Below, piece by piece: positions 53,624-63,787 of a stretch of 64,000 nucleotides of DNA. The stretch spans positions 5,084,001 through 5,148,000 of the forward strand of contig NZ_VFOZ01000001.1 of NCBI RefSeq assembly GCF_006716425.1, read 5' to 3'. The position numbers were made by a program, and so were the translations under genes. Within the stretch, counting starts at the first letter, position 1, and every line of letters starts with the position of its first letter. The notes below the pieces were generated by a model. It made no database searches. It was not told where the DNA came from and saw only the letters and a program-made list of their open reading frames with translations. The stretch is from Actinoallomurus bryophytorum (lineage in GTDB: Bacteria; Actinomycetota; Actinomycetes; Streptosporangiales; Streptosporangiaceae).

Positions 53624-55345
53624 TCAGGAGGTCGTGAGGGCGGTGTCGTCGAGGACGAACGAGGTCTGCTTCTGCGTGCCTTCGGTGCCGGTGAACCTCA
53701 GCGTGACGGTCTGGCCGACGTAGCCGTTCAGGCTGACGCTGTGCTGCGCGTAGCCGGTGACATGGTCGAGGTTGGAGTAGGTGGCGAGGGTCGCCAGGAC
53801 CGTACCGGACCCGTTCACGAGCTGGACCTTCAGCGTGTCGTACGCCGTGGTGCCGGTCTCGGCCGTGTCGACGTGGAGCCAGTAGGAGAGCGTCGCGGAG
53901 CGGGCACTGGAGGGGATGGTGACCTGCTGGCTCAGCGTGTCGGTGGTGGTCGTGCCGTAGCCGTCGAGCCAGGCGTCCCAGGCTCCGGACCGCGCCGGTT
54001 CCTTGGTCCCGCTGTAGATGACCTTGGCGGTGCCGGTCCAAGGCGCCGCAGTGCCGGTCTCGAAGCCCGGGTTGCCGAGCAACTGCGTCCCGCCGCCTCC
54101 CGCGCCGCTGATCGTCCAGGTGAACGACGCCGACCCGGATGGTCCCGTGGAGTCGGTCGCGGTGACCGTGACCTGGCTCGTCCCGGCGGTGGTGGGCGTA
54201 CCGGAGATCAGCCCGGTCGAGGCGTTGACGGACAGGCCCGACGGCAGGCCGGTGGCCCGGTAGGACAGGGTGCCGCCGGCTCCGTCGGAGGCGGAGATCT
54301 GCAGACGTGCGGCGGTGCCGACCGTCCCGGTCTGGGCTCCGGGATTGGTGACGCCGACCCCGCCGGGCGTGCCGGTGGAACCGCCGGTGAGCCAGGCGGT
54401 CGTGTTCAGCGCGATCGCGGCGTCGGTCCCCGCGGGGTCGTTCCAGCCGTCGTACAGGGTGTTGCCCGACTGCCCGGTGCCGTCGTCGATGGTGGAGCTG
54501 TCACCCCAGATGGCGACCCGGCCGCTGCCGAACGTGCTGCTGACGAGGAAGGCCCCCGTGTTGCCCGAGGGCGTCGCGGTGGTCAGGTACACCAGGCCCT
54601 TCACGTTCGCGTTGTCGGCGGGGTGCAGGGTGAAGGTGGTGCCGTTCCGCAGAATGCTCCCTCTCACCGTGCCGAACGGGCCGTTGATGATCGGGTTGGA
54701 GCCGTCGCGGATCGCGACCGGATTGTCGGTGGTGATGTTCAGGCTGTCGACCGAGAAGCCGAACGGATCGGTGTTGTCGACGCCGTTGGCGGTGAGCAGG
54801 TCACTGATGACCTTGGGGGAGTCCCAGCCGTCGTTGTCGCGGTCGCTGCCGGTGTGGTCGGAGATGAGAAAGAGCCCGCCGCCGTTCTGGACGAACCGCA
54901 TGACCGCGGTCTTCTCCGCCGAGCTCAGCTGGACGTTGGGCTCGGGCAGCACGAACGAGTCGAAGTTGGACAGGTCCAGGGCGCTCGAGGTGTTCCCATA
55001 GGTGATCGTGTTGCCGGCCGGCAGCGTCTTCAGGCTGTACTGACCGGTCTTCTGCAGCGCCACGCCCCAGGAGGACAGAGCGCCGGTCCAGTCGGTCTCG
55101 GCGTTCGGGGTCGAGTCCTGCCCCAGCGGGTCGGGCTGGCTGGTGCCGATGATCCAGTCGGCGTTGCCGGCCGTTTCGGCCTTGGTGTTGTCGAACAGCA
55201 CACGGTGCGCGGCGGCGGCGGCGGGTGCCGCCGTGCGGGCGGGCGTCGTGTCGGCGCGGACGGCTGAGCTGACAGAAATGGTCAGGCCGAGTACGGCGAT
55301 CCAGAGGAACACTTTTCTGGGCTGGCGGAACAGTGAAAAGCGCAC
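53624..55345 (-). CDS. Secreted multidomain protein: glutamine-amidotransferase-like fold, Ig-like and CBM-like domains
   Basis: The 573-aa product starts at GTG 55345 with AGGAGG close upstream. A signal peptide (FLWIAVLGLTISVSSAVRA) is followed by a DUF4350/ThuA-like domain (HRVLFDNTKAETAGNADW ... VMRFVQNGGGLFLISDHTG ... GRVAIWGDSSTIDDG). Then come a putative-Ig repeat (TLSYRATGLPSGLSVNASTGLISGTPTTAG in outline) and a C-terminal jelly-roll-like domain (NPGFETGTAAPWTG ... SLNGYVGQTVTLRFTG). It should be exported and could bind a polymer; no catalytic residues are obvious. Confidence 0.8.
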   Translation of the reverse strand: MRFSLFRQPRKVFLWIAVLGLTISVSSAVRADTTPARTAAPAAAAAHRVLFDNTKAETAGNADWIIGTSQPDPLGQDSTPNAETDWTGALSSWGVALQKTGQYSLKTLPAGNTITYGNTSSALDLSNFDSFVLPEPNVQLSSAEKTAVMRFVQNGGGLFLISDHTGSDRDNDGWDSPKVISDLLTANGVDNTDPFGFSVDSLNITTDNPVAIRDGSNPIINGPFGTVRGSILRNGTTFTLHPADNANVKGLVYLTTATPSGNTGAFLVSSTFGSGRVAIWGDSSTIDDGTGQSGNTLYDGWNDPAGTDAAIALNTTAWLTGGSTGTPGGVGVTNPGAQTGTVGTAARLQISASDGAGGTLSYRATGLPSGLSVNASTGLISGTPTTAGTSQVTVTATDSTGPSGSASFTWTISGAGGGGTQLLGNPGFETGTAAPWTGTAKVIYSGTKEPARSGAWDAWLDGYGTTTTDTLSQQVTIPSSARSATLSYWLHVDTAETGTTAYDTLKVQLVNGSGTVLATLATYSNLDHVTGYAQHSVSLNGYVGQTVTLRFTGTEGTQKQTSFVLDDTALTTS

Positions 55346-56396
55346 GACGCCTCCTGGCGGGGAGATGCGGGGCCGACGAACCTCCGCAATGATGGGCGCA
55401 GAACTCCCAAAAAGCTACATTTGATTATTTTCGGATGCGGCTCTCGCCGGTCCGGCAGCAGCCGCTCGACCGTCCGACCTGGGGAGACCGCCGGATCACC
55501 GCGGATCCGGCCGGGGCATGGCAGCCGCGGCGGGCCCGCCGCGACCACGTCGGGCGAAGGCGAACGCCGGGTCGGGACCTATGCCGCGAGGGCCTCAGCG
55601 CACGCTCTGCCGCGACGGCCACAGAGACGAGCCGGATGTCCACTTTCGGCCCCGTGGCGAAGCCGGAGCCGCCGTGGCCGACCTCGATGATCTTGACCCG
55701 ACGCGTGATCATCCGGGGCGACCGGGGTTGCGGATGAGGATCGCCATCGGCTCGATCGCCTGCGATACTGGCCGGGCCCGAGCCGCCGCGCTCAGCGAAA
55801 AGCCAGGTCGGACCCTGTCCAGCAGGACCGGCATGAACAGGCGGCGACGAGGGCGACTTCGGCTTGCGCCGTCCCGCGCATTGACGTCCGTAGTGCCGCT
55901 GACCAGACTTTTCGTCAGAACGAAGGTCAATCCGTCGAACGCTCGCCGATGCAACTGGCGGAGGTCTAAGATGCCCGTTTTACGGGCAGACGACCCGTCT
56001 TTTGGCGAGCAAGCATCACGGGTGATGGCGAATGGTCGACCTGAGAACTCCGGCAAAGAACGGCCCTTCCGTTTCTCCGGGACGCCCATGCGCTTTTCCG
56101 AACCGGCCGAGCGCGCGATTCCCCGGCCGTGCTCCCCACCCACGTCCACGTACATGTGGATCGAGTCGCGGCGAGCCGTCATCGCTGTGACGGGAAATGA
56201 AGCCGAAAAAGCCGAGAACTGCCACTGGACAGGCACGACGACCTTTGGAGATCACCGCGTACGGTCCGGCCGGCGCGCGAACCGTGTGTGCCGGCCTCCC
56301 GGCCACCGCCCGAGCCGGTCGCGTTCCGTCGCTCGGAGCGGGCCACGGCGCGCGTGGCGCAGACCCCGTACCCAACCGCCGATGAGGACCTGATCG
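55346..56396. other. Gene-poor stretch upstream of the conservon
   Basis: About 1 kb with no convincing gene on either strand. It is locally less GC-rich. It holds a perfect hairpin (TGCCCGT at 55972-55978 and ACGGGCA at 55982-55988) with T-runs beside it, and a copy of the ATCACGGGTGAT element at 56015-56026 followed by ATGGCGAATGGTCGAC, which looks like the start of the downstream P450 gene (59449) without its body. A minus-strand frame at 55425-55712 begins with a protein-like KIIEVGHGGSGFATGPKVD but soon degenerates. Confidence 0.5.
56015..56026. promoter_or_regulatory. ATCACGGGTGAT element, copy 1
   Basis: A perfect 5-bp palindrome (ATCAC/GTGAT, 2-bp centre), about 370 bp before the conservon kinase-like gene. 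The flanking sequence GGTGATGGCGAATGGTCGA matches copy 2 at 59432-59457 over about 24 of 26 bases. Confidence 0.65.
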
Positions 56397-57923
56397 ATGT
56401 CAGCACAAGCTTCAGTCCGGCGGCGAGCGGACCGCCCGGCCATGGACCGAGCCCGGCTCATCCTGCTGGCCACGGTGATCGTCACAGGTGCCGCCTGGCT
56501 CGGCACGACGTTCGCCGTACCCGCGGCGGAGCGCGGAGTCGTGACCGCCTGTGTCGGTGTCGCGGCGCTCGTCGTCTGCGCCGCCGTCACCGTCGCCGCC
56601 TATGCCTTCGAGTCCGCCCGCCGGCTCCGCGAGCGCGTGACGACGACAGAGGCGGAGCTCATGCGGCTGGCCGACGACACGTTGCCCGCGGTCGTGAAGC
56701 GGCTGCGCTCCGGAGCGTCGGGGGACACCGCGCTGGCCGAGGTCGAGCAGCCGGACTCCGACCCACAGTTGCGCATCCTGCAGACCCTGGTCGACGCGGT
56801 CGGCAGGGGGGAGCGGATGCGCGCGGCCGCCATGTCGGCCTGTGCGAACGCGGCCGGCCGCGTACAGGCGCTGGCCACCAGCATGCTCGCGGACCTGCGC
56901 GAGATGGAGAACCGGCACGACGAAGAGGTCCTCGGCGACCTGCTGAGACTGGACCACAGCACCGCCCAGGCCGGCCGTCTGGCCGACAGCATCGCCGTGC
57001 TGACCGGCGCCCGCTCCGGCCGCCGCTGGACCAAGCCGATCGTGATGGAGAGCGTCCTGCGCGGCGCGGTCGGCCGGATCAGCGCCTACCAGCGGGTGCG
57101 CATCCACTCCACCAGCACGGTCGCGATCGCCGGGTACGCCGCCGAGGGCGTGATGCACGCGCTCGCGGAGTTGATGGACAACGCGACGAGCTTCTCGCCT
57201 CCCTCCGAGGACGTGCACGTGTACGTGGAGGAGGTCTACGCGGGCGTCGTCGTCACGATCGAGGACGGCGGGCTGACGATGAGCCCCTCGGCGCTGGAGC
57301 GCGCCGAGCGCACGGTGTCGTCGGAGGCGCTGGACCTGACCACGCTGTCCGGCACCAGGCTCGGCCTGGCCGTGGTCGGCTGCCTGGCGCGTAAGCACGG
57401 GATGACCGTCTCGTTCCGGCCGTCCTCACGAGGAGGCACCGGCGTCGTGGTCCTGATCCCGCGGCAGCTGATCACGCAGGGCAGGCCGGGCACCGCTCCG
57501 GCCGCCTCCCGCGCCTCGGGCGTCGCCGCCCGGGTGGCCGGCGCGGCACCCGTGACCGAGCCGGCCACGGAGGTGCCGTCCCCCGCCGAGGCGGAGGACG
57601 GCGCGACCGTGACCCCGGACGCCACGCCGGTCGGCCTGACGGCGTCCGAACCGGACTCCGCGCGGTGGGACGCCGATCCCCTCGCGGACAAGGAGGCCGG
57701 CGGCCCCACCGGTACGGGAGAGGTGATCGCCGGGCTGCCGAGGCGTCGCCGGGGCGAGACGCTGGCGGCGGCACCGCGGAGCGCGGCCGCGGCAGACGCC
57801 GAGCCCGCGGCGCCCGCCAAGCCCGCGACCGACCCGGGCGAGAGGTTCCGGGCATTCCGCGAGGCCGGCCGCCGCGGTGGTGCGGGCGGCGGGGTACCCG
57901 CGCCGGCGCCCGACGACGCCTGA
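56397..57923 (+). CDS. Conservon sensor kinase-like ATPase (CvnA-type)
   Basis: The 508-aa product has two N-terminal membrane helices (LILLATVIVTGAAWLGTTF; ACVGVAALVVCAAVTVAAYAF), a linker without a normal phospho-acceptor H-box and an HATPase_c domain with N-box HALAELMDNATSFSPP and LSGTRLGLAVVGCLARKHGM. A Pro/Ala-rich disordered tail ends FRAFREAGRRGG. This is the typical first protein of Streptomyces conservons, where CvnA acts with B, C and D as a G-protein-like membrane complex. ATG 56397 follows GAGGA. It is followed by roadblock, DUF742, GTPase and P450 genes. Confidence 0.9.
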   Translation: MSAQASVRRRADRPAMDRARLILLATVIVTGAAWLGTTFAVPAAERGVVTACVGVAALVVCAAVTVAAYAFESARRLRERVTTTEAELMRLADDTLPAVVKRLRSGASGDTALAEVEQPDSDPQLRILQTLVDAVGRGERMRAAAMSACANAAGRVQALATSMLADLREMENRHDEEVLGDLLRLDHSTAQAGRLADSIAVLTGARSGRRWTKPIVMESVLRGAVGRISAYQRVRIHSTSTVAIAGYAAEGVMHALAELMDNATSFSPPSEDVHVYVEEVYAGVVVTIEDGGLTMSPSALERAERTVSSEALDLTTLSGTRLGLAVVGCLARKHGMTVSFRPSSRGGTGVVVLIPRQLITQGRPGTAPAASRASGVAARVAGAAPVTEPATEVPSPAEAEDGATVTPDATPVGLTASEPDSARWDADPLADKEAGGPTGTGEVIAGLPRRRRGETLAAAPRSAAAADAEPAAPAKPATDPGERFRAFREAGRRGGAGGGVPAPAPDDA

Positions 57924-58023
57924 TGACCTCGGTTATCCCTGCCAGGACGTACTCACGTAACAAGAGATTGGAGGCAGGGGCCGAGCCTCCGGCACGACAC
58001 CGGACGATCGCCCCGAGAACCCG

Positions 58024-58443
58024 ATGAAGACCACAGAACGTGACCTCGACTGGCTGCTGCAGAACCTCCTCGAGAGGACGCCCGAGACCCGGCACGCCCT
58101 GGTGCTGTCGAAGGACGGTCTCAAGCTCTGTCACACGAACGGGCTGAACATCGACAAGGCCGACCAGCTGGCCGCCATCGCCTCCGGAATCCAGAGCCTG
58201 TCCTACGGTGCGTCCGCGGAGTTCGGGGACGGCACCGGGGGACTCCGGCAGTCCATGACGGAGTTCCACGGTGGCCTGCTGTTCATCGTGGAGGCCGGCG
58301 AAGGCGCCCACCTCGCCGTCGTGGCCTCGGACGAGGCCGATGTCGGCCTGATCGGGCACAACATGCACGAACTGGTCGAACAGCTCGGGGAGTACCTCAT
58401 AGCCCAGCCGAGGCAGGCCGAGCAGGACGCCGGCGCGCGATGA
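58024..58443 (+). CDS. Roadblock/LC7-domain protein (CvnB-type)
   Basis: The 139-aa product has the roadblock/LC7 pattern LDWLLQNLLERTPETRHALVLSKDGLKLCHT ... ADQLAAIASGIQSLSYGASAEFG ... SDEADVGLIGHNMHELVEQLG in outline. Such proteins act as regulatory partners (GAP-like) of small Ras-like GTPases. It is the second conservon gene; its stop overlaps the next start (58440-58443). Confidence 0.92.
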   Translation: MKTTERDLDWLLQNLLERTPETRHALVLSKDGLKLCHTNGLNIDKADQLAAIASGIQSLSYGASAEFGDGTGGLRQSMTEFHGGLLFIVEAGEGAHLAVVASDEADVGLIGHNMHELVEQLGEYLIAQPRQAEQDAGAR

Positions 58444-58799
58444 CCTCACGGCCCCTCGACAAGGAGAACCCGGACCGGCTGTACATCGTCACGGGTGGGC
58501 GCAGCAGCGTGGACGAGAGCTCGATCGACCTCGTCTCCCTGATCGTCAGCGAGTGCGATCCCACGCCGGGCATGCAGTCCGAGCACGTCAGGATCCTGAG
58601 AATGTGCCACAGCCCGACGGCGGTGGTGGAGATCTCCGCGGAGCTCGGTCTGCCGGTGAGCGTGGTGAAGATCCTGCTGTGCGACCTGCTCGACACCGGC
58701 CGGATCACCGCGCGGCATCCGTCCACGGCTCCCGTCAAGGAAAAGCTCCCTGATCCCGCGACCCTGAAGCAGGTGCTCCTTGGACTTGAAAAGCTCTGA
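58440..58799 (+). CDS. DUF742 protein (CvnC-type)
   Basis: The 119-aa product has the DUF742 pattern NPDRLYIVTGGRSS ... LVSLIVSE ... MQSEHVRILRMCHSPTAVVEISAELGLPVSVVKILLCDLLDTGRI in outline, including a helix-turn-helix-like segment. It is the third conservon gene and overlaps the GTPase gene by 20 bp, so their translation is coupled. Confidence 0.92.
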   Translation: MTSRPLDKENPDRLYIVTGGRSSVDESSIDLVSLIVSECDPTPGMQSEHVRILRMCHSPTAVVEISAELGLPVSVVKILLCDLLDTGRITARHPSTAPVKEKLPDPATLKQVLLGLEKL

Positions 58800-59388
58800 C
58801 CAGGCCGCACGTACGCCGTTGCGGAGCACCGCCAGTGACGGACTGAAGATCGTGATCGTCGGCGGATTCGGCGTGGGAAAGACGACGCTGGTCCGCTCGG
58901 TCAGCGAGATCCGGCCGCTGAGCACCGAGGAGACGATGACGCGGGCGGGCGTCGGCATCGATGACGCGGGAGACGTTCAGGACAAGACGACGACCACCGT
59001 CGCCTTCGACTTCGGGCGCATCAGCCTGAACAACGAGATGGTCCTCTACCTCTTCGGCGCTCCCGGGCAGCAGCGGTTCTGGTTCCTGTGGGACCGGCTG
59101 TTCTCCGGCACCCTCGGCGCCGTCGTGCTCGTGGACACCCGCCGGGTGGAGGACTCCTGGTATGCCATCGACCGTCTGGAGCACCACGGCATGCCGTTCA
59201 TCGTGGCCCGCAACCACTTCGGCGGACCGATGCCCGAGCTGGAGGACCTGCGGAAGGCGCTCGACCTGTCCGACGACGTGCCGCTGATCGACTGTGACGC
59301 CCGCGAGCGCGAGTCCGGCAAGGCCGTGCTGATCACGCTCGTGAACCACCTCTACAGACTGTCCACCGCGCTGGAGGGCGCGCACTGA
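58780..59388 (+). CDS. Conservon small GTPase (CvnD-type)
   Basis: TTG 58780 starts a 202-aa protein with P-loop GGFGVGKTTLVRSVSE, switch-like TTTTVAFDFGRI and G3-type LFGAPGQQRFWFLW. The G4 position reads ARNHFGG, with no Asp where classical GTPases have NKxD; conservon GTPases generally deviate here. It presumably cycles with CvnB as partner at the membrane-bound CvnA. Overlaps the CvnC-like gene by 20 bp. The P450 gene follows after 60 bp. Confidence 0.9.
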   Translation: MDLKSSDQAARTPLRSTASDGLKIVIVGGFGVGKTTLVRSVSEIRPLSTEETMTRAGVGIDDAGDVQDKTTTTVAFDFGRISLNNEMVLYLFGAPGQQRFWFLWDRLFSGTLGAVVLVDTRRVEDSWYAIDRLEHHGMPFIVARNHFGGPMPELEDLRKALDLSDDVPLIDCDARERESGKAVLITLVNHLYRLSTALEGAH

Positions 59389-59431
59389 CCACGGCGCGCG
59401 GGCGGACGTTCCTTCCCCTGAGCGATCAGGT

Positions 59432-59457
59432 ACCACGGGTGATGACGAATGGTCGAG
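59432..59457. promoter_or_regulatory. ATCACGGGTGAT-type element, copy 2, at the first P450 start
   Basis: ACCACGGGTGAT (59432-59443, one mismatch to a perfect palindrome) ends 5 bp before the P450 start codon. The following GACGAATGGTCGAG matches copy 1. Its overlap with the translation start suggests a site acting on transcription start or translation. Confidence 0.65.
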
Positions 59458-60705
59458 AACATGCATGAACGCCCCGGCGCGCCGAGCGCGGGCGACGGCT
59501 TAGTACGGCTGTACGGGCCGCGGTTCCAGAGCGATCCGGCCGCGATCTACCGGGAGATCAGGCGCGAGCACGGGCCGGTGGCGCCGGTCCTGCTCGAGGG
59601 CGACGTACCGGCGTGGCTGGTGCTGGGCTACCGCGAGGTGCACCACGTCACGAGCAATCCCCAGATCTTCGGGCGTGACTCCCGCCGCTGGAACGCCTGG
59701 AAGGACATCCCCGCGGACTGGGCGCTGCGACCGTACGCCGAGTACCAGCCGTGCTCGGTGTTCACCGAAGGGGAGGAGCATCGGCGGCGCGGTGGCGCGC
59801 TCAGCGACGCTCTCGCCGCGGTCGACCAGTTCGAGCTGCGGAACCAGGTCGAGCGCATCGCCGACCAGCTCATCGACACCTTCGCCGAGAGCGGCAGGGC
59901 CGACCTGATGGCGCAGTACGCACTCCGCCTGCCGGTGCTGGCCATCGCGCGGCTGTTCGGCCTGTCCGAGGCCGACGCGCCGAGCCTGGCCGCGGACATC
60001 GCCGCCTCTGCCGACGAGGGGGAGGAGGCCGTACGGGCGCACCAGCGCGTGGTCGCACGGATGCGGCGGCTCGTCGAGGAGAAGCAGGCGCGACCCGGCG
60101 CGGACTACCCGTCCCGGCTGCTGGCCCATCCCGCGGGGCTGCCGCCGGAGGAGATCCCGTCGGACCTGTTCCTCACGATGGGTGCGGCACAGCTGACGAC
60201 CGCGGACTGGATGGGCAACACGCTGAGGCTGATGCTCACCGACGACCGGTTCGCGCTGAACCTGTCCGGTGGCCGCCGCAGCGTCGGCCAGGCGCTGAAC
60301 GAGGTGCTGTGGGAGGAGACGCCGACCCAGAACTTCGTCGGCCGGTGGGTCATCCAGGACACACGGCTGGGCGGCCGGCACATCCGCAAGGGCGAGGTGG
60401 TCGTGCTCGGGCTGGCGGCGGCCAACGCCGATTCACAGGTACGGCCCGCCTCGTACGCGCACGCGTCCGGAAACCAGGCCTACATGTCGTTCAGCCATGG
60501 CCTCCACGGATGCCCGCAGCCCGCGCGCGAGATCGCCGAGGCCATCGTCCAGACCGCGATCGAGGTGCTCGTCGACCGGCTCCCGGACATCGTGCTGGCG
60601 GTGCCCGCGCATGAGCTCGAATGGCGTCCGTCCGTGTGGATGCGCGGACTGATCGCCCTACCCGCCGAGTTCAGCCCGATGTACGCCGACCGGCCCGCCG
60701 GGTGA
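59449..60705 (+). CDS. Conservon cytochrome P450 lacking ExxR (CYP157-like)
   Basis: The 418-aa product has the heme-ligand segment FSHGLHGCPQPARE (Cys at residue 355, codon 60511-60513). The I-helix reads TMGAAQLTTADWMG instead of the usual AGxxT pattern. The K-helix ExxR is replaced by EVLW (60301-60312): NEVLWEETP. Loss of this Arg is published for Streptomyces CYP157 P450s, which are conservon-linked. It is 60 bp after the GTPase gene and probably co-expressed with it, with the repeat element at the start codon. Catalysis without ExxR would be unusual; a regulatory or structural role is possible. Confidence 0.9.
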   Translation: MVENMHERPGAPSAGDGLVRLYGPRFQSDPAAIYREIRREHGPVAPVLLEGDVPAWLVLGYREVHHVTSNPQIFGRDSRRWNAWKDIPADWALRPYAEYQPCSVFTEGEEHRRRGGALSDALAAVDQFELRNQVERIADQLIDTFAESGRADLMAQYALRLPVLAIARLFGLSEADAPSLAADIAASADEGEEAVRAHQRVVARMRRLVEEKQARPGADYPSRLLAHPAGLPPEEIPSDLFLTMGAAQLTTADWMGNTLRLMLTDDRFALNLSGGRRSVGQALNEVLWEETPTQNFVGRWVIQDTRLGGRHIRKGEVVVLGLAAANADSQVRPASYAHASGNQAYMSFSHGLHGCPQPAREIAEAIVQTAIEVLVDRLPDIVLAVPAHELEWRPSVWMRGLIALPAEFSPMYADRPAG

Positions 60706-60740
60706 ACGGACGCGCGTACGGCCGCCGGGCCGTACGCCGG

Positions 60741-61967
60741 TCAGCCGCCCTCGATGACGTACGCGGGCGTGAAGCTCACCGGCAGCACTGACAGGCCGCG
60801 GACGTGGAGGGCGGGCCGCCATTCGAGCTCGTCCTCCGGAACCGCGAGGCGCAGGTCCGGGAGCCGGTCGAGCAGCACCTCGATGGCCGTATGCGCGATG
60901 ACCTCGGCGAGTTCCGGTGCCGGGTGGGGGCATCCGTGGTCGCCGGTGCCGAACGCGAGGTGGGCGTGGTTCCCGCCCGAGTCACCGTGGACGGCGGGCC
61001 GTACCCGCGGGTCGGCGTTGGCGCCGGCCAGCCCGACGATCATCACGTCGCCGGCCCGGATGCTCTGGCCGCCGAGCTCGGTGTCACCGGTCGCCCAGCG
61101 GCCCGGGGTGGCCTTCACCGGCGTGTCCTCCCACAGCACCTCGTTCAGCGCCTGACCGACGCTGCGGCGGCCGCCCGAGAGGGTCAGCGCGAAGCGGTCG
61201 TCGGTCAGCATGAGACGCAGCGTGTTGCCGATCCAGTTGGCGGTGTTCTCCTGGCTGCCGGAGATCACCACGAGGATGTCCTGGATCAGCTCCTCGTCGG
61301 TGACTCCGGTCGCGTAGCCGAGCAGGCGGGACAGGACGTCACGCCCCGGCCGCGCGCGCTTGGTCTCGATGAGACTCGTCATCACCGCCATGAACCGGAC
61401 GTACGCGTCGAGGGCATCCTCGCGGCCGTCACTCATCGTCTTCATGTCCTGGGCGACGCCCATCAGCTCGGAGTCGGGCAGCCCGAGCATGCCGCCCATG
61501 ACGAGCACCGGCATCCGGTACGCGTACTGCTCCATGAGCTCGACCTCACCGGCGGGGGCGAAGGAGTCGATCAGCCGGTCGGCGAACCGCTCGCAGTCGG
61601 CCCGCAGCCCGAACTGGTCCACCTCGCCGAGCGCGGCGGCGACCGCGCCGGCGCGGCGCGCGTGCACCTGCCCGTCCAGGAACATCAGCATGCCGGGCGT
61701 GTAACCCACGGCCTGCGGTGGCACGTACTCCGCGCCGTGGCAGCGGTACGGGTCACGGGCGAACAACTGCCCGTCGGAGAGGACGCGCTGCGCCTCGCGG
61801 TAGCCGACGACCAGCCACGCGGGGTCGCCGCTTTCGAGCAGGACCGGCACGACCGGCCCGTGGTCGCGCCGCATCTCACGGAACAGCGCCTCGGTGTCGG
61901 CCTCGAAGCGCTGCCCGTACAGCGGCACCGCGCCGGAATGTGCGCCTTCGGTCTCCGGCGCGGTCAC
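60741..61967 (-). CDS. Second ExxR-lacking cytochrome P450, paralogue in opposite orientation
   Basis: The 408-aa product starts at GTG 61967 (VTAPETEGAHSG), inside the overlap with a leader ORF; an in-frame longer start at 62069-62072 (MAHGAAENAG) is an alternative. It has HGCPHPAPELAEV with heme Cys (codon 60930-60932) and again EVLW in place of ExxR (61131-61142). The I-helix reads ISGSQENTANWIG. It shares long identical stretches with the first P450, including NTLRLMLTDDRFAL and SGGRRSVGQALNEVLWE, and faces it tail to tail with 35 bp between stops. Confidence 0.9.
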   Translation of the reverse strand: MTAPETEGAHSGAVPLYGQRFEADTEALFREMRRDHGPVVPVLLESGDPAWLVVGYREAQRVLSDGQLFARDPYRCHGAEYVPPQAVGYTPGMLMFLDGQVHARRAGAVAAALGEVDQFGLRADCERFADRLIDSFAPAGEVELMEQYAYRMPVLVMGGMLGLPDSELMGVAQDMKTMSDGREDALDAYVRFMAVMTSLIETKRARPGRDVLSRLLGYATGVTDEELIQDILVVISGSQENTANWIGNTLRLMLTDDRFALTLSGGRRSVGQALNEVLWEDTPVKATPGRWATGDTELGGQSIRAGDVMIVGLAGANADPRVRPAVHGDSGGNHAHLAFGTGDHGCPHPAPELAEVIAHTAIEVLLDRLPDLRLAVPEDELEWRPALHVRGLSVLPVSFTPAYVIEGG

Positions 61968-62067: not shown

Positions 62068-62079
62068 ATCACCCGTGAT
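62068..62079. promoter_or_regulatory. ATCACGGGTGAT element, copy 3, at the second P450 start
   Basis: On the minus strand ATCACGGGTGAT is exact and is followed by GGCACATG, placing an ATG at the same distance as in copies 1 and 2. Confidence 0.65.
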
Positions 62080-62668: not shown

Positions 62669-63787
62669 ATGGCCTTTACTGTCACAACCGTGGTGGAGCA
62701 GATGTGGCGGGCGGTCGGGGTATTCCGCCTTGTGACCCTCGTCTACGCCGGAGTACTGATCTTCGGGAACTACGGGCGGTACGCACATCCCGCGGGCGGG
62801 ATTCTTGTTCTCGGAATCATGGCCGGCTGGTCCGCGACGACGACGGTCGCCTACGCGCGGTCCCCGGAGCGAAGAGCCTGGCTCGCCGCCGCCGATGTGG
62901 TGGTCGCGGTCTTAATCGTCATCGGCACCCGCTGGGTCGAGACGGCCGCGCGGATCGACCACGGTGCGGCCACTCTGCCGGTCTCCTGGGCGGCGGCCTC
63001 GGTGCTGGCATGCGCCGTCGCGGGCGGACCGTGGGCAGGGCTGGCCGGAGCGGCCGCGGTCTCGGCCGCGGACGTGCTCGAGCGCCGGGCACTGCCGCAG
63101 AACACGTTCAACGGGATCGTGCTGCTCCTGATCGCCGGGATCGTCGGCGGCCATGTCGTACGCCTCGTGCTCCGCGCGGAGACCGCCGCGGATCGCGCCG
63201 TCCGGCTGGAGGCGGCAACGGCGGAACGGGAGCGGCTCGCCCGCGACATCCACGACTCGGTCCTGCAGGTTCTGGCGTTGGTCGGCATGCGGGGCCGGGA
63301 ACTCGGCGGTGAGGCCGCCGACCTCGCCAGGCTGGCCGCCGAACAGGAGAAGGCGCTCCGATCGCTGGTGACGGGGGCGCCGTCGCCCGGTCGCGACGGG
63401 CAGGTGGACCTGCGGACGTTGCTGGAGCCCCTTGCCGGCGGGCGGATCACGGTCTCCTGTCCGGGGGACGCGGTGTGGCTCCCGTACGCCACCGCGGAGG
63501 CACTGGCGGCCGCGGCCGGCGAGGCGCTCGGCAACGCGCGCCGCCACGCGGGCGTGGACGCCCGGGCCTGGGTGCTGCTGGAGGACGAGGGCGGAGCGGT
63601 CACCGTGACCGTACGCGACGACGGCACGGGGTTCGCGGCGAGCAGGCTCGCGCAGGCGGTCGAGGCCGGCCGCATCGGGGTCGCCCAGTCGATCGTCGGC
63701 CGGATCCATGAGGTGGGCGGGGAGGCCGATGTGATCTCCACGCCGGGAAAAGGGACCGAGGTGGGGCTTCGTGTGCCGCGCGACTGA
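62669..63787 (+). CDS. MacS-type sensor histidine kinase
   Basis: The 372-aa kinase has five or six membrane helices in the first 165 residues (DUF5931-like; MWRAVGVFRLVTLVYAGVLIFGNYGR), H-box ERLARDIHDSVLQVLALVG and an HATPase_c domain (GEALGNARRHAGVDARAWVL ... VRDDGTGF). The G-box segment RIGVAQSIVGRIHEVGG is typical of MacS-like kinases. It overlaps the following response-regulator gene by 17 bp. Confidence 0.9.
   Translation: MAFTVTTVVEQMWRAVGVFRLVTLVYAGVLIFGNYGRYAHPAGGILVLGIMAGWSATTTVAYARSPERRAWLAAADVVVAVLIVIGTRWVETAARIDHGAATLPVSWAAASVLACAVAGGPWAGLAGAAAVSAADVLERRALPQNTFNGIVLLLIAGIVGGHVVRLVLRAETAADRAVRLEAATAERERLARDIHDSVLQVLALVGMRGRELGGEAADLARLAAEQEKALRSLVTGAPSPGRDGQVDLRTLLEPLAGGRITVSCPGDAVWLPYATAEALAAAAGEALGNARRHAGVDARAWVLLEDEGGAVTVTVRDDGTGFAASRLAQAVEAGRIGVAQSIVGRIHEVGGEADVISTPGKGTEVGLRVPRD

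Follow-up and report, generated by a model that had tools for sequence, protein, structure and literature searches.

Conservons are loci in which genes for a histidine-kinase-like protein (CvnA), a Roadblock protein (CvnB), a DUF742 protein (CvnC) and a small GTPase (CvnD) lie adjacent. In the accessible parts of two reports, accessory genes encoding a P450 (CvnE) or a GAF protein (CvnF) accompany CvnA kinases without a sensor domain, and kinases with such partners have two transmembrane segments separated by a short loop (PMC8510531, PMC13343842). According to the available text of the latter, CvnF8 binds CvnA8 and stimulates its ATPase activity and autophosphorylation, CvnE11 has been modelled on the HATPase domains of CvnA11, and neither accessory type had been biochemically assessed earlier. 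As far as the source is accessible, EVLW replaces the K-helix ExxR motif in Streptomyces virginiae Svu023 and S. avermitilis CYP157A2, and EQSLW is found in CYP157C1 (PMC3599690, citing Rupasinghe et al. 2006). ExxR loss in CYP157, EVLW included, and P450s as CvnE accessories of sensor-less kinases are, therefore, already known from these texts. Here, we describe a conservon of Actinoallomurus bryophytorum followed by two P450-like genes, P450a and P450b, in a 64,000-nucleotide stretch (the window, G000:C1:5084001-5148000) of its 9.47-Mb genome. What is new is a conservon with two P450s that have Trp in place of the ExxR Arg, which belong to different branches, one of them convergent, and have no normal partner; no description of this arrangement was found in a literature search that left subscription papers mostly outside. 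Also new are a residue census of such proteins, the rarity of several of them without a partner, a tree that gives no support to a local duplication and a relic of P450a in a sister species. We propose that P450a and P450b are probably non-catalytic, probably bind heme and supply input to the CvnA kinase, which has no sensor of its own.

In both proteins, EVLW aligns on the K-helix ExxR of solved P450s (EMLR in PikC), placing a Trp where the Arg would be, as the original prediction had read from the sequence. Both, thus, carry the K-helix signature of CYP157 (no ExxR Arg, Trp instead). Hereafter, P450s are called Trp-type or Arg-type by this residue alone; other columns played no part in the split. 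P450a and P450b are 52% identical over 406 aligned positions, and each has the heme-thiolate signature FxxGxxxC (FSHGLHGC and FGTGDHGC). The CxG motif is absent, the corresponding residues being CPQ and CPH, and the acid-alcohol positions of the I-helix read Leu-Thr in P450a and Glu-Asn in P450b, so that neither protein shows the combination of ExxR, CxG and acid-alcohol pair expected of a monooxygenase. The predicted structures clearly point to a P450 fold for both (mean predicted local distance difference test scores of 83.8 for P450a and 84.6 for P450b), with template modelling scores to CYP154C1 of 0.85 and 0.83, respectively, and with P450s making up all 50 listed Foldseek matches of each model. 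In the search against P450 families that had been advised, the Pfam cut-off (PF00067, 22.8 bits) is not reached, P450b scoring 17.6 bits and P450a going unreported at E≤0.001. A P450 protein of locus L112, from the same genus, likewise falls below it, with 16.6 bits. Surveys relying on this cut-off, which misses the window proteins, may undercount Trp-type P450s.

Relatives were collected from a scan of named genomes (48 loci), from eight genomes of the genus (relatives at E≤1e-100 in seven) and from a family sample of 250 genomes (relatives at E≤1e-110 in 93), where seven candidates were scored per genome and counts are, thus, lower bounds. The family search returned 139 places, two of them the window's own and eight left out of the census (three in G027, two in G139 and one each in G048, G097 and G223); the remainder made up 115 loci (L112-L226), each extended by about 8-10 kb to either side as far as its contig reached. 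CvnA-D and P450s were marked by hidden Markov models built from the collected set. Some loci stop at contig ends, so that partners beyond them would be missed, and the named and unnamed sets overlap (L032 is L120). Among the 329 P450 rows (327 from the loci and the two of the window), the fourth K-helix position is Arg in 142 and Trp in 179, and EVLW is, for that reason, no chance event. Eight rows were set aside from these counts (five EVLK/DVLK, two RVLY and one incomplete). Removal of rows at least 90% identical to a kept one left 140 Trp-type and 110 Arg-type rows, which share descent and do not count independent events.

Trp-type P450s mostly retain the heme-holding positions and lose those of oxygen activation. 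The heme Cys is present in every row of both types (140/140 and 110/110). Trp-type rows also keep Gly at Cys-4 (140/140), Phe at Cys-7 (137/140), the propionate-type beta Arg (133/140), the K-helix Glu (120/140) and His at Cys-2 (116/140). Conversely, CxG is found in 0/140 Trp-type against 109/110 Arg-type rows, the I-helix acid-alcohol pair in 7/140 against 106/110, and the C-helix Arg/Lys in 9/140 against 110/110; the stretch from the K-helix to the Cys is shorter, with a median of 71 versus 76 residues. An Arg elsewhere standing in for the lost one would have spoken against the original prediction. No clear substitute lies nearby: across the 140 relatives, Arg/Lys exceeds 25% at none of the positions from -6 to +8 of the Trp in the linear sequence, and the maximum, 25% at +1, is mostly Lys at a position where both window proteins have Glu. 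A meander-motif regular expression proved too strict, 97 of 142 Arg-type rows failing it too, and was not used. A thiolate pocket that is kept while oxygen activation is relaxed would be the pattern of a heme- or ligand-binding pseudoenzyme.

The same losses can be read in another way, with the proteins as heme-free scaffolds or allosteric partners built on the P450 fold. P450-derived glycosyltransferase activators, which are not known to carry the heme Cys and act on glycosyltransferases, are the model for this alternative, which we consider improbable. It would account for the missing CxG and C-helix Arg, for the shortened K-helix-to-Cys stretch, for the low prediction confidence around the Cys and for a similarity to the activator model TIGR04515 (68.9 and 89.6 bits for the two proteins). 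However, these scores lie far under the 343-bit cut-off of that model, and the conservation of the Cys, of Gly at -4 and of Phe at -7 would be unexpected were heme dispensable.

The genetic setting is that of a conservon with accessory genes (Table 1). CvnA, CvnB, CvnC and CvnD are adjacent, in conservon order and on one strand. P450a starts 60 bp after the CvnD stop and is the fourth gene after cvnA, and so lies within the four genes allowed for a CvnE. P450b converges on it, their stop codons lying 35 bp apart; a longer version of P450b from a GTG start at 62072 is likewise open. Simple hydropathy predicts two transmembrane segments in CvnA (residues 19-37 and 48-66) with ten residues between them and no extracytoplasmic sensor domain, as described for the cognate kinases of CvnE. 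A scan for promoter and terminator consensus sequences found none of either, where about 0.2 and 1.1 would be expected by chance.

Table 1. Conservon genes, P450-like genes and their key residues, in positions of the window.
Feature	Position	Strand	Evidence
cvnA, histidine-kinase-like	56397..57923	+	HATPase_c, E 2.2e-12 (Pfam)
cvnB, Roadblock/LC7 protein	58024..58443	+	PF03259, E 1.6e-23
cvnC, DUF742 protein	58440..58799	+	PF05331, E 1.8e-33
cvnD, small GTPase	58780..59388	+	PF03029 (ATP_bind_1), E 1.1e-29
P450a, CvnE-position Trp-type (EVLW) P450-like protein	59449..60705	+	
P450b, convergent Trp-type (EVLW) P450-like protein	60741..61967	-	
P450a K-helix EVLW, residues 285-288	60301..60312	+	Alignment to PDB P450s
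P450a heme-ligand Cys355	60511..60513	+	Cys in 140/140 non-redundant Trp-type rows
P450b K-helix EVLW, residues 276-279	61131..61142	-	Alignment to PDB P450s
P450b heme-ligand Cys346	60930..60932	-	

We propose the two P450s as input subunits because the kinase has no sensor and there is a published GAF-accessory precedent. The sensor-less membrane kinase CvnA would receive its input from one or two P450-fold accessory proteins, which probably still bind heme through the Cys, the residues for oxygen activation being gone. Occupancy of the heme or of the pocket, by a small molecule or by a gas on the heme, would shift how the P450s sit on CvnA; the changed seating would set its kinase activity, and the signal would pass from CvnA through CvnB/CvnC to the GTPase CvnD. 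The two P450s probably respond to different ligands or are able to replace each other. A regulatory role in place of monooxygenation, already put forward in the original prediction, is the best reading of the residue losses and of the CvnE/CvnF precedent. The contact point suggested there, CvnD, has to be revised: CvnA is likelier, as the accessible text of PMC13343842 places the published accessory proteins at the kinase.

The genome has six conservons, of which that of the window and that of L065 carry Trp-type P450s. The EVLW P450 of L065 is more distantly related and has no Arg-type neighbour, and a second N-terminal transmembrane segment was not predicted in the CvnA of that locus. In L068 and in the first conservon of L070, CvnA has sensor-sized gaps of about 280-300 residues between the transmembrane segments; the CvnA of L069 has such a gap by one prediction and fewer than two segments by a cruder rule. 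A short-loop CvnA without a P450 (the second of L070, also contained in L071) has a GAF-domain gene directly after CvnD. The two conservons on contig C2 lie about 10 kb apart (L070, L071), and the GAF gene of the second is a CvnF-type accessory. By an automatic classification, which is rough, the 101 family CvnA proteins near a Trp-type P450 comprise 92 short-loop proteins, seven with fewer than two transmembrane segments and two with a sensor (L146 and L202, in both owing to a hydrophobic stretch at 253-271). Among the 48 named loci, it gave 15, six and one, respectively.

Cluster counts in the family sample (ARRANGEMENTS) were made over the 115 loci with genes chained at gaps of up to 1,500 bp. 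A Trp-type P450 is held by 112 clusters in 110 loci, the other five loci having EVLK/DVLK proteins, and a conservon is present in 101 of the 112. These 101 consist of 56 clusters with one Trp-type and one Arg-type P450, 31 with a lone Trp-type, nine with two of each and one each with two Trp/no Arg, three Trp/no Arg, three of each, two Trp/one Arg and one Trp/two Arg. The original prediction had noted the missing normal partner. It is indeed missing, since no Arg-type P450 adjoins the pair and the P450-like places closest to it on this contig lie about 88 kb ahead of P450a (C1:5054017, which also reads EVLW) and about 35 kb beyond P450b (C1:5180727). Its absence is, however, nothing special, an Arg-type partner being absent from 33/101 family conservon clusters. 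Nor did we find, in the accessible conservon P450 literature, a statement that a normal CYP154 is the usual partner of CYP157. Double Trp-type arrangements of this kind are uncommon, yet the window is not alone in having one. Several Trp-type P450s without an Arg-type occur in two of the 101 family clusters (L112 and L114, both of the same genus as the window); of the 48 named loci, 42 have a Trp-type cluster, 22 of these 42 a conservon and 11 of these 22 no Arg-type, with Frankia L049 (RVLW and EVLW) as the only case that combines several Trp-type P450s with the lack of an Arg-type. Within the genus, eight conservon loci have close relatives (the window, L112, L113, L114, L119, L120, L121 and L124); none of the eight has an Arg-type neighbour, and three have at least two Trp-type genes. 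Complementary I-helix lesions, considered as a pairing rule, were rejected, as L112 (Gln-Pro/Glu-Pro) and L114 (Glu-Pro/Glu-Pro/Leu-Thr) show no consistent complement.

These counts also bear on the idea that P450a and P450b are working but unusual enzymes, substrate-assisted or peroxide-driven, which make or modify the signal of the conservon. One Trp-type paired with one Arg-type P450 being the arrangement of 56 family clusters, oxidation chemistry is often at hand; the Cys, the beta Arg and mostly the His at Cys-2 are retained; and conservons of other actinomycetes lie upstream of biosynthetic genes, as far as the text of PMC3617294 is accessible. Against this, few or none of the Trp-type rows have the acid-alcohol pair, CxG or the C-helix Arg/Lys, and the window pair has no adjoining Arg-type P450. 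We, thus, regard catalysis as unlikely, if somewhat less so than a heme-free scaffold, and favour the two proteins as non-catalytic inputs to CvnA.

Further arrangements were seen in the sampled loci. In L116, L118 and L123, of the same genus, a Trp-type adjoins an Arg-type P450 with CvnA-D undetected in the flanks taken, and the same holds for such pairs in 17 Streptomyces loci (L034-L046, L048 and L050-L052); the P450 pair, therefore, exists apart from conservons. Alternating Trp-type/Arg-type arrays follow the conservon as three pairs in L030 and L149 and as two pairs in L142, L143, L145-L148, L181, L195 and L213. Proteins with Lys at the ExxR Arg position (EVLK/DVLK) form a sister subclass in L216-L220, and in L216, L219 and L220 their gene stands between CvnD and an Arg-type P450. 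A plasmid search gave 78 records with relatives; identity to P450a never exceeded 60%, and a CYP name was absent from all 25 that were listed. Flanking the window's conservon are a large protein that matches a putative Ig domain (He_PIG, Pfam; 53624-55345, open reading frame 53627-55414) and, upstream of the P450b start, a MacS-family sensor histidine kinase (62669-63787; 420 bits against a cut-off of 300).

The supposition that the ExxR-lacking form had been duplicated at this locus found no support as a local event. In a tree of 76 Trp-type proteins, built by a quick method and with Shimodaira-Hasegawa-like approximate likelihood ratio test (SH-aLRT) support only, P450a falls in a clade of four rows (SH-aLRT 99), the others being L114, from the same genus, and two genes of Pseudonocardiaceae. 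P450b belongs to a clade of six rows from this genus only (100), nested in a 21-row clade (97) in which a conservon adjoins 15 of the 21 genes. A local tandem duplication is, therefore, unsupported: the two genes lie in different supported clades and each has an orthologue in another species, P450a in G002 (L114, 73% identical) and P450b in five other species of the genus. The approximately unbiased (AU) test rejected uniting the P450b clade with P450a and the orthologue of P450a (p 0.008) but not the wider union of the four and six rows (p 0.14), which would correspond to a more ancient common origin including two further genes; the groups were chosen after inspection of this quick tree, so that the p-values are indicative.

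The orthologous locus of G005 (L120) gives a view of the later history. Its CvnA, CvnB, CvnC and CvnD are 87, 94, 88 and 94% identical to those of the window and its P450b 88%, in an equally convergent order. Between CvnD and P450b (L120:10265-10524) lies a relic of P450a, most of the gene being absent, which matches residues 2-53 (70%, with a stop codon inside) beside residues 204-233 (62.5%). Most likely, the CvnA-D/P450a/P450b arrangement is older than the divergence of the two species, G005 having lost P450a and kept P450b; the evidence comes from one metagenome-assembled genome, 87% complete. P450b stands beside a conservon in three species: it is convergent in the window and in L120 and diverges from CvnA in L121. 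In L121 (G006), the gene flanking P450b and the conservon is the one that flanks them in the window (that of 53627-55414, 89% identical), with P450b and the conservon both reverse-oriented.

The relic might suggest that the P450s of the window are themselves decaying pseudogenes, left after the loss of a normal CYP157-CYP154 pair. Both frames are intact, however, full-length orthologues occur in several species and the Trp-type state recurs across several actinomycete families. Nei-Gojobori ratios of nonsynonymous to synonymous substitution rates (dN/dS) are 0.31, 0.45 and 0.36 for three pairs of P450b and 0.28 for one pair of P450a, which shows purifying selection on the P450s. Decay, thus, seems very improbable, far more so than either of the other alternatives.

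Several observations weigh against P450a and P450b as input subunits of CvnA. Both evolve somewhat faster than the core conservon genes (dN/dS of 0.215 for CvnD and 0.25 for CvnA, one pair each), and the decay of P450a in G005 shows that it is dispensable there. P450b, the fifth gene after cvnA and on the opposite strand, falls outside the CvnE rule of PMC13343842. A neighbouring conservon is not obligatory for Trp-type P450s: three of the six P450b-clade genes (L115, L117 and L122, from G002, G003 and G007) have none in the flanks taken, nor have L019 and L022 of the P450a clade. Similarity to the conservon of the window is lower in L121 (CvnA 60%, CvnD 81%) than in L112, L114, L119 and L124, where the P450s are other ones (CvnA 67-68%, CvnD 85-87%); the L121 conservon may, thus, have been exchanged for a different one at the same place. 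Structure prediction is of low confidence just before the Cys (residues 335-340 and 350-354 of P450a and 328-331 of P450b). Finally, heme binding, contact with CvnA and ligand sensing by the two proteins are what we infer, which must be set against the proposal as well.

The residue census speaks to the question of what feeds P450-type conservons. More tentatively, Trp-type P450s might be a class of heme-thiolate sensors, interchangeable inputs for sensor-less kinases, with the slot on the GTPase side swapped between lineages. The window would then hold a two-input version, in which P450a (Leu-Thr) and P450b (Glu-Asn) bind different ligands or gases and act together or compete on one CvnA dimer. 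The Actinoallomurus loci offer natural replacements and one case in which an accessory gene was lost naturally next to a closely similar conservon, which makes the sensor idea directly testable.

Compared with known systems, the window proteins share with Streptomyces CYP157, as described in the accessible literature, the Trp replacing the ExxR Arg, the EVLW motif itself, the linkage to a conservon and the retained heme Cys. What differs from CYP157 is that one locus holds two Trp-type genes, encoded on opposite strands, without a normal partner; the EVLW proteins of the 17 Streptomyces loci carry no CYP name and share 49-54% identity with the query, and the likeness to CYP157 rests on motif and context. 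With the P450-derived glycosyltransferase activators (TIGR04515), they would share a non-catalytic use of the P450 fold; in contrast to these, the Cys is invariant in Trp-type P450s. A P450-type gene after cvnD and a CvnA without a sensor domain are common to this locus and to the CvnE accessories, as far as these are described in the available texts, whereas here the P450s come from different family branches and P450b is convergent and outside the operon. The model for how P450a and P450b may act is CvnF8 of Streptomyces coelicolor, in its available description a stand-alone partner for a sensor-less CvnA, which differs in having a GAF rather than a P450 fold; biochemistry exists for CvnF8 and a structure model for CvnE.

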